From assembly GCA_012974425.1 (NCBI GenBank), contig JAAXQE010000110.1:1-40647 (forward strand): DNA of 40,647 nucleotides, read 5' to 3'. Source of the DNA: Geopsychrobacter sp. Lineage in GTDB: Bacteria > Desulfobacterota > Desulfuromonadia > Desulfuromonadales > Geopsychrobacteraceae. This document shows, one piece after another, positions 3,035-25,121 of the stretch (positions are counted from its first letter, which is position 1; every line of letters begins with the position of its first letter). The notes beneath the pieces were generated by a model. The model was not told the origin of the DNA and ran no database searches. It saw only the letters and a program-made list of their open reading frames with translations. A program made the translations under genes and the position numbers.

Positions 3035-3767
3035 GGCCGACCTGATAGAAATATTCTCCTCCATTCAGGGAGAAGGCCCCCTTATCGGTTTCAGGCAGCT
3101 GTTTATCCGTTTTGCGCGCTGCAATCTGGCCTGCGATTACTGCGACACCCCCTTTAAGACGGTGCCAGAGTGTACGGTTGAGACCGCACCTGGCAGTGAG
3201 ACCTTCGTCGACTGGCAGAACCCGGTGTCGGATCGCCGCATTGAAGCTCTGGTCAGAGATTGGACCAGCAGTCAACCCGGTTTGCATCACTCAATCAGCC
3301 TGACCGGTGGCGAGCCACTGCTGCACGCTCAAGTATTGAGCGATTGGCTGCCGAAGCTGCGCAATTTCCTGCCGATCTACCTTGAGACCAATGGCACCCT
3401 GCCAGATCAGCTCTCTGCTCTGTTACCCCTGATCGATTTTATTTCAATGGATATCAAGCTGCCGTCGCTAGCAGGGCAGGGGGACCTTTGGGATGTTCAT
3501 CGTGAATTTCTGCAGATTGCCCGACAGAAGCAATGCTTCGTCAAGGTTGTGCTCGACCCGCAGACCCCGCGCGAAGAGGTTCTGCAAGCCGCAAAACTGG
3601 TAGCCGAAACGGCCCCGGAAAGCGAATTCATTCTGCAACCCTACACCGGCCCAGAGGGGATCAATCTCTCTACCCAGAATCTACTTGAAACTCAGCAGGC
3701 GGTAGCGACACTTCTTCCCCGCGTCCGAGTTATTCCGCAAACCCATAATTTTCTGGGAGTTCTGTGA
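3006..3767 (+). CDS. queE: 7-carboxy-7-deazaguanine synthase QueE (radical SAM)
   Basis: QueE is a radical S-adenosylmethionine enzyme that contracts the ring of 6-carboxytetrahydropterin to 7-carboxy-7-deazaguanine in the queuosine pathway. The cluster motif is CNLACDYCDT (CxxxCxxC), preceded by EIFSSIQGEGPLIGFRQLFI, which is the family's usual N-terminus. SLTGGEPLL is the SAM-binding GGE motif. The protein is 253 residues from the ATG, which lies 29 bases inside queD. A GTG at 3027 is an alternative start with an eight-base overlap. QueC and QueF are not in the window, so the pathway must be completed elsewhere. Confidence 0.94.
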   Translation: MPARPTPVTRADLIEIFSSIQGEGPLIGFRQLFIRFARCNLACDYCDTPFKTVPECTVETAPGSETFVDWQNPVSDRRIEALVRDWTSSQPGLHHSISLTGGEPLLHAQVLSDWLPKLRNFLPIYLETNGTLPDQLSALLPLIDFISMDIKLPSLAGQGDLWDVHREFLQIARQKQCFVKVVLDPQTPREEVLQAAKLVAETAPESEFILQPYTGPEGINLSTQNLLETQQAVATLLPRVRVIPQTHNFLGVL

Positions 3768-5691: not shown

Positions 5692-6825
5692 ATGCGTCAA
5701 TCCGAACTTGCCAGTTATGCCGCCCGTAGTGCCGAGAGTCGCGGCCGGGTCTATGCCGAACCTTATAAGGACAAGCGACTCGCCTTTGAGCGTGATCGTG
5801 ATCGCATTATCCATTGTGCCGCATTTCGACGCCTGGAGTATAAGACCCAGGTTTTCGTTAATCACGAGGGTGATTACTACCGTACCAGGTTGACTCACTC
5901 CCTCGAAGTCGCTCAGATCGCGCGTGGCATCGCCCGCGCCCTGCATCTAAATCAGGATCTGGTTGAGACTTTGGCCCTGGCACATGATCTCGGCCATACC
6001 CCCTTCGGTCATACCGGGGAAGATGTCTTGAATCGACTGATGCAGGGGCATGGCGGCTTTGAGCATAACCGGCAGTCGCTGCGGATTGTCGACCTGCTCG
6101 AGGAGCGTTACCCCGAATTCAATGGTCTGAACCTCAGCTGGGAGGTCAGGGAGGGGATCATCAAGCACTCCTCCGATTACGATCAGGCCGGTTCTGATGC
6201 CGCGGCCGATTTTGAGCCGAGACAGCGGGCGACCCTGGAGGCTCAGGTTATCGATCTGGCTGATGAAATTGCCTACAACAACCACGATATCGATGATGGC
6301 TTGAAGGCGGGCTATATCAGCCTTCAGGCCCTCTCAAAAGTCGAACTCTGGCAGGCTACTTTTCGCAGAATAGGCGAGAAATATCCCCTCATAGACGAAA
6401 AGCGCCAGACCTTGCAGACTATCAGCTATCTGATTCATGATTTGATTCAGGATCTGGTCGATACGACAAGCAGCAATATCGCTAGCGCTGCGATCGGGTC
6501 GCTTGATGATTTACGTCGTCAACCTCAGAATCTGGCGTCTTTCAGCCCGGAGATGCGTCAGCTGAACCGGGAACTGAAGAAATTTCTCTATAAGAACCTT
6601 TATCGTCATCACAAGGTTGAGTTGATGCGGGTCAAGGCCGAGCGTTTTCTGACCCTGTTGTTCGAAAACTACACGAAAAATCCGACCTTGCTCCCGCTCG
6701 ATCACCAGATCAGCTTCGACGAACATGGCGCAGAACGGGTCATCTGCGATTATATCGCCAGTATGACCGATCGCTATGCTCAGGATGAATATAAACGACT
6801 CTATGAGCCTTTTGAGCGCGCCTAA
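5692..6825 (+). CDS. dgt: dGTPase-like HD-domain triphosphohydrolase
   Basis: Family members hydrolyse dNTPs to the deoxynucleoside and triphosphate. The HD metal site is visible: R-x-R-LTHSLEVAQI near residue 70 (first His), LAHDLGHTPFGHTGEDVL near residue 98 (HD pair), and later DLADEIAYNNHDIDDG (Asp ligand). The N-terminal FRRLEYKTQVF is the usual dGTPase signature. At 377 residues it is the shorter 'dGTPase-like' (type 2) class, not the 505-residue E. coli Dgt. GGAG precedes the ATG by five bases. It ends convergently against the YhbY gene. The true substrate range cannot be read from sequence. Confidence 0.9.
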   Translation: MRQSELASYAARSAESRGRVYAEPYKDKRLAFERDRDRIIHCAAFRRLEYKTQVFVNHEGDYYRTRLTHSLEVAQIARGIARALHLNQDLVETLALAHDLGHTPFGHTGEDVLNRLMQGHGGFEHNRQSLRIVDLLEERYPEFNGLNLSWEVREGIIKHSSDYDQAGSDAAADFEPRQRATLEAQVIDLADEIAYNNHDIDDGLKAGYISLQALSKVELWQATFRRIGEKYPLIDEKRQTLQTISYLIHDLIQDLVDTTSSNIASAAIGSLDDLRRQPQNLASFSPEMRQLNRELKKFLYKNLYRHHKVELMRVKAERFLTLLFENYTKNPTLLPLDHQISFDEHGAERVICDYIASMTDRYAQDEYKRLYEPFERA

Positions 6826-21398: not shown

Positions 21399-21437
21399 TA
21401 AAAAAGCCTTCGACAGTATGTCGGAGGCTTTTTTTTT
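21399..21437 (+). terminator. Rho-independent terminator after glnA
   Basis: A stem AAAAAAGCCTTCGACA ... TGTCGGAGGCTTTTTTTT (one T·G or mismatch inside), followed by eight T. It ends the glnB-glnA unit and separates it from the ferredoxin gene. Confidence 0.9.
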
Positions 21438-21515
21438 GATACAGGTCAATGACTGCCACGGATTTAAAGGTTATTCTCTCTGGAAAACAATCAATAACTA
21501 ATTGGAGGATAGAAA

Positions 21516-22280
21516 ATGGCTTTACGTGAGATGGTCGTAATCGACGAAGAAAAATGTGACGGTTGCGCACTCTGTGTCCCATCCTGTGCCGAGGGCGCAA
21601 TTCAGATCATTGATGGCAAGGCCCGGCTGGTTTCAGACAACCTCTGTGATGGTCTGGGGGCCTGTCTTGGGGACTGCCCGCAGGGAGCAATCACCATTGA
21701 AAAACGCGAAGCGGATGAATTTGACGAAGAGGCGGTCGAGATGCGTCTGAAGGAGATCGGTCGCGTGGCGGAGGCTCATCACCCAGCGCCTGCACCTGTT
21801 GCGGCTGGCGGTTGCCCTTCAACCCGTATCCAGACCTTTTCCGGTTGCCCTTCTGCGCAGGCTCAGTCTGTTGCTCCGCAGAAAACTTCCACAGATGATG
21901 TCGCCGGACAGCGCCCTTCTGAGCTGCGGCAATGGCCGGTTCAGCTGCATCTGGTCCCGCCGACAGCTCCTTTTTTGCAGGGAGCCGACCTTTTGCTGGC
22001 CGCAGATTGTGTCGCCTTTGCCTATGCCGATTTTCACAAGGACATGCTTAAGGACAAGGCCTTGCTCATCGCTTGTCCCAAACTGGATGACGGGCAGGCA
22101 TATATTGAAAAATTGAGTCAGATGTTTGCCAATGGTGGAATTAAGTCATTGACCGTCGCGATTATGGAGGTACCCTGTTGTGGTGGCCTTACCGCCATTG
22201 TACGTCAGGCATTGGCCAAGAGTGGCGCAAATATCCCCCTGGAAATCGTAACCGTAGGGGTTGGTGGAGAACTTAAATAA
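21516..22280 (+). CDS. 4Fe-4S dicluster ferredoxin-like protein with C-terminal cysteine domain
   Basis: A 254-residue cytoplasmic iron-sulfur protein. The N-terminal bacterial ferredoxin domain holds CDGCALCVPSC (CxxCxxCxxxC) and CDGLGACLGDCPQGAI (CxxxxxCxxxCP), the usual two clusters with a slightly altered second motif. A flexible region with GGCPS and SGCPSAQ follows (about 95-120). The C-terminal part contains LLAADC, LIACPKLDD and MEVPCCGGLT, a second Cys-containing domain probably binding another cluster. Similar proteins occur near hybrid cluster protein genes in related anaerobes. GGAGG is seven bases before the ATG. It opens the HAO-like locus, so electron delivery there is possible, as inference. 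Confidence 0.86.
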   Translation: MALREMVVIDEEKCDGCALCVPSCAEGAIQIIDGKARLVSDNLCDGLGACLGDCPQGAITIEKREADEFDEEAVEMRLKEIGRVAEAHHPAPAPVAAGGCPSTRIQTFSGCPSAQAQSVAPQKTSTDDVAGQRPSELRQWPVQLHLVPPTAPFLQGADLLLAADCVAFAYADFHKDMLKDKALLIACPKLDDGQAYIEKLSQMFANGGIKSLTVAIMEVPCCGGLTAIVRQALAKSGANIPLEIVTVGVGGELK

Positions 22281-22315
22281 CCATTGTTAGAAGAGTACGC
22301 GAAGGAGGAGAGTTT

Positions 22316-22405
22316 TTGAATCACTCCTGCCGCTGTGAATCGTGTGAATATAGTTTTTATTTAAGCTGCGGAGTCAAATTTTGTGCTTTAATCGGAACAT
22401 GCTGA
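22316..22405 (+). CDS. 29-residue cysteine-rich candidate small protein
   Basis: A short frame starting TTG at 22316 and ending TGA at 22403-22405, too short for ordinary gene finding. AAGGAGGAG (22302-22310) lies five bases before the TTG. The predicted peptide has six cysteines in 29 residues: CRCESC near the N-terminus, then SCGVKFC and a final GTC. No hydrophobic leader is obvious. Its stop overlaps the ATG of the lipoprotein gene by seven bases, consistent with coupled translation. It could be a metal-binding microprotein or a leader that senses metal or redox state. The ribosome binding site is the main evidence. Confidence 0.4.
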   Translation: MNHSCRCESCEYSFYLSCGVKFCALIGTC

Positions 22406-23514
22406 AAATTCTTTTGAGCCTATCTCTTGTTCTTATGGTCGGCTGTACCAGTAGTATCCTGCCGCTGGAGATTAGCGGAAGTAATCTCCAGGTTCGTCCA
22501 ATCGCGCGCGTCTCTGCTGCTGGTCCTATGGCTATCTCTGCCGATGGCCGAATGGTTGCTTGGGGCGGCAAGGTACTGACTCTCGTCGATCTAGAGACGA
22601 ATCAGCGATTTGAGCCACTTTCTCTGGCCCCAGATTCTCTGTGCTGGTCTCCCGATGGGTCGTTGCTGGCTGCTGCTCTTTATCACGATGGTCAGGCGCA
22701 GCTTCAAGTCTTGGATCGCAATGGCAGGCTGGTTTTCGAGCAGACACTCCCCGGTCGGGTCTTCCGCTTGCGTTGGTCGCAGGCGGGAGGCTTGATGGCC
22801 GGCGCCCTTCAGGCGGACAGCTATAAATTCGGAACCCATGTCACTGAGCACTTGCTTCGTTGGGATGATCTCTGGCAGGTCACAGATATACCCCTGTACG
22901 AAACTACGCTCATGCCGATTACTATGGCACGATTGGGTGAGCATCTATATCAAACCTTTGATTTCGACCTTTCACCCTTGGGGGATGAGGTGCTTTATAC
23001 GAGAGTTCACGCCCCGCCAGCATTTTCCTCAACCCGTCACTTAATCCTGCATAACCTTCGGTCTGGTGAAGAAAGGCAGGTAGCGAATTTACCTCTGCTC
23101 GGTGGCACTGGTCGACTGGCTGCAGATGCTGAGTCTGTCTTGGTTGTTGATGGTCAGGGGACGATCAAGAAACAGGATCTATGGAGTGGTGCCCTTCGGC
23201 AGCAGTGGCCAGGAAGCCGTTTTGACTACTCGGCCGCTACCGATTTGTTGATTGCGGATGGCCGCCTCTTTCTGGATCAGCTTGAATTCTTCGACCTGCC
23301 CGAGGCGAGTTCGGCACAATTTTCATTAGGTGGGAAGTTCATACTGATTGCATGGCATAAGAGCCTCTACCGGCTAGAAGGTTATTCGGTTGCTGCGGTG
23401 CCAGAGCTAGAGCCTGAAATTTTGGAGCGGTTATTGAAACTGCGGTATCTGCGTAGTCGCGGCTTGATTGAACCGAATGAATACCTGGATGCCAAGGAGA
23501 AATTAGCGCGATGA
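22399..23514 (+). CDS. Outer or periplasmic lipoprotein, beta-propeller-like, C-terminal SHOCT-like segment
   Basis: A 371-residue secreted lipoprotein. The N-terminus MLKILLSLSLVLMVGC is a signal peptide II with lipobox LMVGC and Cys16. The middle contains repeated blocks such as AISADGRMVAWGGKVLTLVD and LCWSPDGSLLAAALYHD that resemble WD40/TolB propeller blades. The last about 30 residues (LLKLRYLRSRGLIEPNEYLD onward) resemble a SHOCT domain, a short helical pair normally found at the end of oligomeric membrane-associated proteins. It overlaps the cytochrome gene by four bases (ATGA), so the two are translated together. The exact function is unknown; a scaffold for the cytochrome is an inference. 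Confidence 0.8.
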   Translation: MLKILLSLSLVLMVGCTSSILPLEISGSNLQVRPIARVSAAGPMAISADGRMVAWGGKVLTLVDLETNQRFEPLSLAPDSLCWSPDGSLLAAALYHDGQAQLQVLDRNGRLVFEQTLPGRVFRLRWSQAGGLMAGALQADSYKFGTHVTEHLLRWDDLWQVTDIPLYETTLMPITMARLGEHLYQTFDFDLSPLGDEVLYTRVHAPPAFSSTRHLILHNLRSGEERQVANLPLLGGTGRLAADAESVLVVDGQGTIKKQDLWSGALRQQWPGSRFDYSAATDLLIADGRLFLDQLEFFDLPEASSAQFSLGGKFILIAWHKSLYRLEGYSVAAVPELEPEILERLLKLRYLRSRGLIEPNEYLDAKEKLAR

Positions 23515-24776
23515 TAAGAATTCTTTGTTTTCTTTTTGTGCTTATTTCCACCCCGGTCTTTGCCGAAGAGCGCGGAAGTGACTGCCTCTCCTGTCACCAG
23601 CAAGATTCCGCCAATCGTCAGCTTCTCGCCAGCAGCCATGCTGGCAAATTGCTTTGTGCCGATTGCCATGGCGAAGATCATGCTGCGATCGATCGGGGAG
23701 AGAGCTTTGTCGGAGCTGATGTCTGTGGCCGATGTCATGCCCTGCAACTCAAGGAACATCGCAACAGTCGTCATGGTATGGCCTTACATACGGGCTGGGG
23801 TTGTACCCGGAATGAGCCGGAGCGGGACAAGCAGGAGTGTGCCTTCTGTCACCAGCAGGGCAGCAGTCTACCCATATCAACAGTCCAGTGTGCGCGTTTT
23901 ATCAAGCAGAGCAGTGAAATGGGGCAGATCGGTTGCAATCGCTGTCATATGGTCGAGAATTCCTGTGGCAGTTGCCATGGTAATCATATGACCGATGCTA
24001 AAATTGTGCGTGACCCGGCGGTTTGTGCCAAATGCCACATGGGACCTGATCACCCCCAATGGGAGGCGTGGCAGACCTCGCAGCATGGCACGCTTTACGG
24101 CAGCATTGGTGAGCCGGATGCCCCCGCTTGTCAAACCTGCCATATGCCTCTCGGCACGCACGATGTCTCGGGCGGGTTAACGGCTCCGCCCAGTGGCAAG
24201 CCCTATGCGCAACAAAAAGCTGCTGCACAACGTAATGAGATGCTCGACCTCTGTCAGAGCTGTCATGCCCGCAGCTTTGCCGCGCGTGATCTGCAAATGG
24301 CTGATGCCGTTCGCCTGCAGACGCTGAAGCTGGTTGCTGAAGCGCGCACAATCATCCGGGACCTGGATGATCGGGGTCTACTCGATCCACAACCAAAAAA
24401 CAGAATCGAGCATCCGCAGCGTGGTCAGGAGCTTGTCCTGGATGGGGCGATGCTCTACGAAGACATTTCACATATTGAGAGCCTCTTCTTTCGGCTGAAT
24501 AAATATGCTGCGGCCAAGACATTCAAGGGGGCCTATCATCAGAATCCTGCTTATACCCACTGGTATGGTAACGCCGAAGTGAAACTGCTGCTTAACGATA
24601 TCAAGGGGGAGGCCCGGCGTCTGCGCGAGCGCGTCAGTCAGCCAGGGATGACTGTGGATGAACCCCAGGATGAGAAGGCCCTTGAGGTGCTGCAGAAAAG
24701 GTACCAGCGGGGTGAACTGAGTGACGCAGATTATGCCGAAAAGAAGCGCCAGGTTCTTGAGCAGATTCTTCAGTAG
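23511..24776 (+). CDS. HAO-like multiheme cytochrome c with C-terminal SHOCT-like segment
   Basis: A 421-residue secreted cytochrome. Residues 1-18 are a signal peptide (MIRILCFLFVLISTPVFA). Nine CxxCH heme sites are visible, with first Cys at about 25, 49, 72, 110, 142, 152, 172, 207 and 248. The order CHMVENSCGSCHGNHMTD, VCAKCHMGPDHPQWEAW, CQTCHMPLGTH and the tail KGAYHQNPAYTHWYGNAE match the hydroxylamine oxidoreductase (HAO) family, in which hemes handle hydroxylamine, nitrite or hydrazine; HAO itself has eight. The last about 30 residues (LQKRYQRGELSDADYAEKKR onward) resemble SHOCT. A reductive role is likely in this anaerobe, but the activity cannot be read from sequence. Confidence 0.88.
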   Translation: MIRILCFLFVLISTPVFAEERGSDCLSCHQQDSANRQLLASSHAGKLLCADCHGEDHAAIDRGESFVGADVCGRCHALQLKEHRNSRHGMALHTGWGCTRNEPERDKQECAFCHQQGSSLPISTVQCARFIKQSSEMGQIGCNRCHMVENSCGSCHGNHMTDAKIVRDPAVCAKCHMGPDHPQWEAWQTSQHGTLYGSIGEPDAPACQTCHMPLGTHDVSGGLTAPPSGKPYAQQKAAAQRNEMLDLCQSCHARSFAARDLQMADAVRLQTLKLVAEARTIIRDLDDRGLLDPQPKNRIEHPQRGQELVLDGAMLYEDISHIESLFFRLNKYAAAKTFKGAYHQNPAYTHWYGNAEVKLLLNDIKGEARRLRERVSQPGMTVDEPQDEKALEVLQKRYQRGELSDADYAEKKRQVLEQILQ

Positions 24777-24788
24777 AGATTGTTGACG

Positions 24789-25121
24789 ATGGATAAGGAG
24801 ACCAAGGATCTGGGGGTGCTTGCGCTGTTCACCAGTGTTTACTGCGCGGCTCATCATTCAGAACAAAAACGGGAGACCGTTGATCTGGGGCTGCCAGACT
24901 CTGGGAAGTACCGTTATTGCCCGGCCTGTTCCGAGTTGCTGCGCTATGCAATTGAGCGCCGCAAGCGCTGTCCGCTCGACCCAAAGCCGACCTGCAAGCA
25001 TTGTCAGGTCCACTGTTATCGGGCTGGACATCGTGAAAAGGTTCGCGCCATCATGCGCTATTCTGGCAAGACCTTGATCCTGCGCGGCCGTCTCGATCTG
25101 CTCTGGCACTATCTCTTCTGA
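24789..25121 (+). CDS. ygbA: YgbA family protein (nitrous oxide-stimulated promoter family)
   Basis: A 110-residue cytoplasmic protein of the YgbA family. Several cysteines are conserved: YCPACSELLRYAIERRKRCP then CKHCQVHCYRAGHREKVR, and the end SGKTLILRGRLDLLWHYLF. In E. coli ygbA is induced by nitric oxide under NsrR and is linked to nitrosative stress, but its chemistry is unknown. It begins 12 bases after the cytochrome gene, placing it in the same unit. I use the ATG at 24789; two TTG codons upstream are in frame. No NsrR-type site was found. Confidence 0.88.
   Translation: MDKETKDLGVLALFTSVYCAAHHSEQKRETVDLGLPDSGKYRYCPACSELLRYAIERRKRCPLDPKPTCKHCQVHCYRAGHREKVRAIMRYSGKTLILRGRLDLLWHYLF

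Follow-up and report, generated by a model that had tools for sequence, protein, structure and literature searches.

A putative HcpR-controlled operon pairing a nine-heme relative of hydroxylamine oxidoreductase with a propeller lipoprotein in Geopsychrobacter

A contig of Geopsychrobacter sp. (JAAXQE010000110.1, 40,647 nucleotides; here called the window) carries a cluster of four genes for an FrdX-like ferredoxin, a propeller lipoprotein, a nine-heme cytochrome c of the hydroxylamine oxidoreductase (HAO) family and a YgbA-family protein. Within the known HcpR regulon, this cluster is best regarded as a new module. Its genes probably help the cell to cope with toxic nitrogen oxides, because relatives keep them beside hcpR and the DNA sites of this regulator. 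The explanation as a whole, a nitrosative-stress operon of the HcpR regulon, is given a probability of roughly 0.6. The nitrogen-oxide context, which an original prediction made from the letters of the window had already proposed, is supported by linkage and regulation; reduction of nitric oxide (NO), hydroxylamine or nitrite is what we infer for it.

The prediction had listed five genes on one strand with small gaps or overlaps. Judged by comparison with other genomes, four of them are conserved together, while the fifth, a cysteine-rich mini-ORF, is not a gene. The arrangement was described correctly: all four genes lie on the plus strand, 118 bases separate the ferredoxin and lipoprotein genes, the lipoprotein and cytochrome genes overlap by 4 bases, and ygbA follows after 12 or 3 bases, depending on whether it starts at 24789 or 24780.

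21516..22280, plus strand: FrdX-like ferredoxin gene (fdx); Fer4 match at 2.4e-8, two 4Fe-4S motifs and a conserved C-terminal domain with MEVPCC
22399..23514, plus strand: lipoprotein gene with ATG start; signal with lipobox ..LMVGC, read by eye; predicted propeller at residues 26-331 and hairpin at residues 339-370
23511..24776, plus strand: gene of the nine-heme HAO-family cytochrome c; PF13447 match at 3.9e-22, signal peptide, SHOCT at residues 390-416 (6.2e-7)
24789..25121, plus strand: ygbA; ATG start matching relatives, with an in-frame TTG also at 24780; PF11756 match at 1.7e-20

The proposed ferredoxin-like nature of the first product is borne out by the Fer4 match and the two clusters, and the assignment of the last one to the YgbA family by scores above both cut-offs (PF11756, 73.8 bits against 25; NF007714, 122.1 bits against 88). 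The suggested periplasmic chemistry fits half of the cluster: export signals, as judged by eye, are present on the lipoprotein and the cytochrome only, and YgbA and the ferredoxin should therefore act in the cytoplasm.

Linkage of the genes across genomes

In a survey of 136 genomes of the order, with thresholds of E ≤ 1e-60 for the cytochrome and E ≤ 1e-20 for the lipoprotein, the former was found in 28 genomes and the latter in 35, which include all 28 cytochrome genomes. The lipoprotein is present in 28/28 cytochrome-bearing versus 7/108 other genomes (Fisher p 7e-23, which is indicative only because the genomes are related). Both genes are adjacent on one contig in 27 of the 28 genomes and split by contig ends in the remaining one (G004), and ygbA adjoins the cytochrome gene on its downstream side in 24/28 (exceptions G038, G045, G057 and G058). 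Among the seven genomes with the lipoprotein only, four (G013, G014, G027 and G031) have it 86-253 bases before ygbA and lack a cytochrome gene there; G056, G078 and G129 make up the rest. A propeller lipoprotein directly before ygbA, with the cytochrome absent, is seen in loci L197, L208, L209 and L211, which could reflect either loss of the cytochrome or a separate role of the lipoprotein. No lipoprotein was found within the DNA examined of 49 outgroup loci (L068-L116).

A second set comprised 60 ygbA loci (351 kb), selected from 94 ygbA-bearing genomes. It contains hcpR in 41 loci, an FrdX-like homologue in 36, either of the two in 50, the lipoprotein in 12, and lipoprotein plus cytochrome in 8. 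The commonest layouts are hcpR-ygbA-frdX (19), hcpR-ygbA (12), ygbA alone (9) and ygbA-frdX (8); all five genes are combined in 6 loci, the lipoprotein occurs without the cytochrome in 4, and the pair is found once with hcpR but without frdX and once with frdX but without hcpR. The lipoprotein-cytochrome pair sits between hcpR and ygbA in 7/60 loci, and wherever pair and regulator occur together the order is hcpR-lipoprotein-cytochrome-ygbA(-frdX). By gene order, a subset of Desulfuromonadales has the pair inserted after hcpR and ahead of ygbA-frdX, and the cytochrome always comes with the lipoprotein. The recurrence in other Desulfuromonadales that the original prediction had asked for was thus found, and proximity to the regulator holds for the relatives, with hcpR in 41/60 ygbA loci, but not for the window genome, where hcpR and hcp lie on other contigs.

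Two alternatives concern the neighbourhood itself. That the genes are neighbours by chance and form no functional unit might be argued from the variable gene order, with frdX leading the cluster in the genus of the window and coming last elsewhere; yet their company is retained despite the changed order, the pairing holds in 28/28 genomes and the sites are shared, which leaves this idea barely credible. The genes could also belong to nitrogen assimilation, continuing the glnB-glnA operon, which ends 135 bases upstream of the cluster in the window (glnA was identified by translation) and lies upstream in the congeners L023 and L025 as well. However, the intervening DNA contains an HcpR-type site and, at 21406-21437, a hairpin with nine T after it (as judged by eye; the hairpin scan lists one there on the minus strand only), and no glnA was detected next to the cluster in either L022 or L026-L034. 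The assimilatory reading was rejected by this synteny and is highly improbable. On the downstream side, the cluster is followed by a cation-efflux gene on the minus strand.

Additional associations were noted in single loci. By eye, an HD-domain phosphohydrolase-like protein is encoded after frdX in L039, L047, L052 and L058, and L039/L047 also encode a thioesterase-like protein there. In the Bacteroidota locus L097 (1135-9783), nrfA, nrfH, an Rrf2 regulator, frdX, a hemerythrin and two eight-heme HAO-like cytochromes lie on one strand within 9 kb, together with genes for a 340-amino-acid protein and a methyltransferase-like protein. Judged from its gene content, this is a second, independent FrdX/HAO-like association, with another HAO subgroup.

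HcpR and its candidate sites

The window genome encodes an HcpR orthologue (C157:57-713) with 62% identity to the regulator of L052 and the recognition helix TVSETLSR. The best relative of HcpR in the PDB is the DNR protein, an NO regulator. In the recognition helices of the 41 HcpR proteins encoded beside ygbA, the counterpart of CRP Arg180 is Ser in 40/41 cases, and Glu181 is present in 41/41, by a mapping to CRP numbers that we take to be correct. The accessible text of Rodionov 2005 (PMC1274295) reports this Ser for delta-proteobacterial HcpR and ties the loss of the CRP Arg to the motif TTGACnnnnGTCAA.

Sites were sought with the published TTGAC-N4-GTCAA pattern and with variants that have T instead of C in one half-site, using the reversed pattern as a control. 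The 60 ygbA loci contain 63 HcpR-type sites versus 2 for the control; a site lies within 350 bases upstream of ygbA in 23/60, and anywhere in the locus in 35/36 frdX-bearing loci versus 4/24 others. For the cytochrome, 39 loci were compared, four of them shared with the set of 60 ygbA loci (G038, represented by L029/L038, was left out). A site stands at the start of the unit in 14/17 loci with ygbA/frdX versus 1/22 without (30 sites versus 2 for the control), and two of the three siteless loci with ygbA/frdX, L024 and L028, end at contig ends before the lipoprotein promoter. From these sequence comparisons, control of the family by HcpR is considered highly probable, and control of the window copy likely.

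In front of the lipoprotein gene, the site begins 47-49 bases before the ATG in 10 of the 12 loci displayed, where for L023, L055, L058 and L060 this ATG is a chosen start, downstream of the first one in the open frame. In these ten loci, an A+T-rich -10-like stretch is located immediately ahead of the ATG. Because of this spacing and of the -10-like stretch just before the ATG, the sequences suggest that the lipoprotein transcripts are leaderless.

Part of this regulation was already visible under another label: Table 10 of Rodionov 2004 (PMC545781) includes two Desulfuromonas sites, at -83 before a 'Cytochrome c (heme-binding protein)' and at -96 before frdX1. Locus L236 contains all 18 letters of each published site without a difference (2944-2961 and 3383-3400), ahead of ygbA and frdX. 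By this match, and as far as the accessible table goes, the gene labelled 'Cytochrome c (heme-binding protein)' appears to be ygbA. The ygbA-frdX part had therefore been seen in 2004, without the YgbA name, since the published sites match L236 and ygbA lies behind the first of them. The comparison of FrdX concerns the homologue in L236, which carries the letters of the published frdX1 site.

Sites of the same type are found at other nitrogen-related genes. In the window genome, a perfect HcpR-type site (L185:2903-2916) starts 195 bases before the nrfA ATG, and in at least seven of eight genomes (G002, G005, G007, G040, G047, G048 and G050) one hcp gene has the motif 100-235 bases upstream of its matched region.

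In the window, a candidate site was found upstream of position 21516, where the original prediction had proposed to look for HcpR sites; such sites also precede the units in relatives. The promoter region contains the following features.

21436..21449, plus strand: HcpR-type site TTGATACAGGTCAA, with one mismatch to TTGACnnnnGTCAA, 66 bases from the ferredoxin ATG
21472..21477, plus strand: putative -10-like hexamer TATTCT (4/6 to TATAAT), with a spacing that would fit a class II CRP/FNR-activated promoter
22316..22405, plus strand: cysteine-rich mini-ORF of 29 amino acids with TTG start, judged a non-gene
22351..22393, plus strand: apparent remnant of the lipoprotein's own promoter, with a decayed HcpR site (22351-22364) and a -10-like TTAATC (22388-22393)

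If transcription began at about 21484, the centre of the upstream site would lie at -41.5. The identical 14 letters precede the ferredoxin gene in the congeners L023 and L025, although the sequence downstream of them differs there. In the third congener, L022, they were not found within 250 bases upstream of this gene. The sigma-70 scan lists no promoter before the operon, the TATTCT hexamer included, and the hairpin scan lists no terminator-like hairpin between fdx and the lipoprotein gene. The decayed site occupies the position of the L022 and L023 sites, 48 bases ahead of the lipoprotein ATG. Read in this way, the lipoprotein's own site has decayed in the window, and the 21436 site is suitably spaced to drive expression of all four genes. 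A second TTGATGCGGGTCAA at 6622-6635 of the window, within the open frame 5692-6825, is probably there by chance.

A tblastn search of the mini-ORF against the 15 loci compared gave no match at 1e-3, and three congeners have nothing corresponding to it in this gap; in two of them, the lipoprotein's HcpR-type site stands at the spot that the mini-ORF overlies. It was therefore rejected as a gene and appears to cover a decayed lipoprotein promoter.

The nine-heme cytochrome and its lipoprotein partner

The description of the cytochrome as HAO-like holds for the superfamily. Its PF13447 region scores 79.2 bits against a cut-off of 21.9 and is present in 14/14 orthologues, and a profile built from these orthologues finds the hydroxylamine oxidoreductases of Kuenenia and Nitrosomonas as the nearest solved structures. 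The protein differs from the eight-heme HAO in having nine CXXCH motifs, and three of its segments can be placed relative to HAO as follows.

23838..23852, plus strand: extra heme motif C110AFCH114, the fourth motif, between HAO hemes 3 and 4 and flanked by the invariant C98 and C127
23934..23948, plus strand: heme motif C142NRCH146, equivalent to HAO heme 4 (P460 site) in the profile alignment to 4fas C229-H233
24048..24053, plus strand: D180-H181, equivalent to HAO D267-H268 in the 4fas alignment and invariant in 14/14 sequences of alignment A1

In HAO, the Asp-His pair D267-H268 has a catalytic role. Nine CXXCH motifs are present in 40/40 clade members, and so is the combination of the extra motif, the heme-4 motif, C98 and C127 (window included); none of the 49 outgroup rows has both motifs. 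In a tree of 82 sequences, the nine-heme clade (39 rows, with L042 excluded as truncated) forms one side of a branch with a support of 100/97 and splits into two groups of 32 Desulfuromonadales-type and 7 Nitrospirae members. By sequence, the nine-heme cytochrome is thus a separate, well-supported clade marked by the extra motif and HAO-like at the superfamily level only. A second HAO-like family (L016-L021 and others), with frames of about 430-490 amino acids that are about 30-39% identical to the window cytochrome, is common in genomes of the same family, most of which lack the nine-heme cytochrome.

The position of the cross-linking Tyr of oxidative HAO bears on whether such a protein works in the reductive or in the oxidative direction. 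In the Nitrosomonas alignment, Tyr467 falls on H350, which is His in 39/39 clade rows reaching it, whereas in the Kuenenia alignment a C-terminal Tyr pairs with Y352, a residue that is Tyr in 36/39 rows, including the window, and Ile or Leu in L027, L028, L029 and L032. According to the accessible part of PMC12758564, His at the key site goes with reductive HAO forms, and a His-to-Tyr change has been reported within Desulfobacterota. Because of the link between His at this site and reductive forms, we lean towards a reductive nine-heme cytochrome. An oxidative enzyme like HAO/HOX/HDH, which would oxidise hydroxylamine (or hydrazine) arising from nitrite reduction and deliver the electrons to the periplasmic pool, could draw on the Kuenenia and Nitrosomonas enzymes as best structural relatives, on the Kuenenia alignment and on the change reported within Desulfobacterota. 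The invariant His at the place of Tyr467, the association of this His with reductive enzymes and the replacement of Y352 in four loci argue against it, and we regard it as very unlikely. Reductive catalysis on a nitrogen oxide is given even odds.

The lipoprotein model (pLDDT 90.9) predicts a seven-bladed WD40-type propeller followed by a helical hairpin. Foldseek and VIA-align list WD40 propellers only, with listed Z values of 21.7-23.3, which leaves room for a closer relative; at the sequence level, propeller matches are weak and remain under the Pfam cut-offs. The lipoprotein had been predicted to end in a SHOCT domain. The window copy does not reach E 0.5, but 5/12 orthologues match at this threshold (best 5e-4), and the model ends in the hairpin. 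SHOCT (PF09851) is also found in 10/14 cytochrome orthologues at E ≤ 0.01, so that both partners seem to have similar C-terminal ends. That cytochrome and lipoprotein act as one complex is regarded as likely.

Proposed function and relation to known systems

In the proposed mechanism, NO, or nitrite via NO, would activate HcpR and switch on the operon. The cytochrome would be exported, mature with nine c-type hemes and dock on the lipoprotein, probably at the outer membrane, by way of the propeller, the SHOCT tails or both. It would draw electrons from periplasmic cytochromes, and its heme-4 site, with the Asp-His pair, would reduce NO, hydroxylamine or nitrite. In the cytoplasm, FrdX would supply electrons to Hcp, and YgbA would aid recovery. 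In its most novel form, the proposal is an undescribed two-protein envelope reductase, made of a nine-heme HAO relative and a propeller lipoprotein, that is induced by HcpR and works outside the cytoplasm, where it would destroy NO, hydroxylamine or nitrite as the counterpart of Hcp-FrdX and YgbA inside; this version is tentative, with chances slightly short of even. The pair has no description that we found in the open-licence literature, with regulon databases and supplements outside the search, and in the accessible parts of that literature no paper measuring the chemistry of the nine-heme clade was found.

Several observations weigh against a nitrosative-stress operon. The pair occurs without adjacent ygbA/frdX in 22/39 cytochrome loci, including those of Geomonas, Geobacter and Nitrospirae (L061-L067), and its neighbours in Nitrospirae and Geomonas, inspected by eye in some loci only, include nothing nitrogen-related. 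Of these 22 loci, 21 have no site at the lipoprotein gene, and G038 is siteless too (1/23). The original role of the pair may therefore have been other than NO defence. L057 is a true miss, with ygbA and cytochrome but no site, and one genus contributes eight siteless ygbA loci (L198-L205), of which seven have hcpR. The window genome itself has its hcpR orthologue and both hcp genes on other contigs; the two hcp contigs carry no exact site, with a one-mismatch site before one hcp, and among the matches listed there is none for the additional hcp copies of G040 and G050. The window site alone proves little, because it has one mismatch and because the window genome contains 15 matches to the degenerate pattern TTGAY-N4-GTCAA, versus up to 5 for the control. 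The structure model of the cytochrome is poor (pLDDT 58), too low for heme placement, and was left out of the fold search for this reason. Finally, NrfA was found in 9/28 cytochrome genomes versus 54/108 others (p 0.14), in a family search that counts weaker relatives too. This comparison addressed the idea that the cytochrome might replace NrfA, and in it the two do not track each other.

The pair might instead be an envelope electron-transfer or metal/electrode reductase module that was recruited to the HcpR island for another reason, for example to sustain respiration while NO poisons other hemes, so that any nitrogen-oxide turnover would be incidental. Metal reduction is known in this lineage, and the siteless loci without ygbA/frdX fit such a module. 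OcwA, a nonaheme terminal reductase with slow nitrite reduction and hydroxylamine turnover as further activities (PMC6703420, as far as accessible), can be cited in its favour as well. That the pair is inserted between hcpR and ygbA and has its own site speaks against this recruitment, as do the differences from OcwA detailed below, and we consider it unlikely.

The nitrosative-stress reading matters because little is known about how anaerobes of this group handle extracytoplasmic NO and nitrite. If it is true, an exported enzyme would be added to the HcpR response, YgbA would gain a regulatory home beyond the enterobacterial NsrR regulon, and the label of a gene listed in 2004 would be corrected. 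The pair would also offer a two-gene target for learning what a nine-heme HAO relative does, and the reductive/oxidative split of HAO-like enzymes would become testable in a new branch.

Among known systems, the HcpR regulon of delta-proteobacteria, in the accessible accounts (PMC545781, PMC1274295), is like the window family in regulator type, palindrome and FrdX ferredoxin; the lipoprotein and the nine-heme cytochrome were not found in the accessible parts of the Rodionov 2004/2005 account of it. With the HAO/octaheme family (1fgj, 4fas, 4n4j, 6h5l), the window cytochrome has the PF13447 region, the heme-4 site and the D267-H268 pair in common, but differs from HAO in its nine CXXCH motifs, two extra invariant cysteines, the SHOCT tail and the constant lipoprotein partner. 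OcwA of Thermincola potens, as described in the accessible text of PMC6703420, resembles it in its nine hemes and its HAO/NrfA-type fold family. However, the extra heme of OcwA is heme 2 relative to HAO and that of the window cytochrome lies between hemes 3 and 4, and OcwA, located at a Gram-positive cell surface, has His-His motifs at open hemes, whereas the window cytochrome has no adjacent histidines. Orthology with OcwA was rejected on these two features. For YgbA, the accessible text of PMC5320621 reports that E. coli ygbA rises in nitrate-treated anaerobic cultures and is dispensable for the NO-scavenging activity tested. The E. coli protein belongs to the same family as that of the window, with NsrR control there and HcpR-type sites here.

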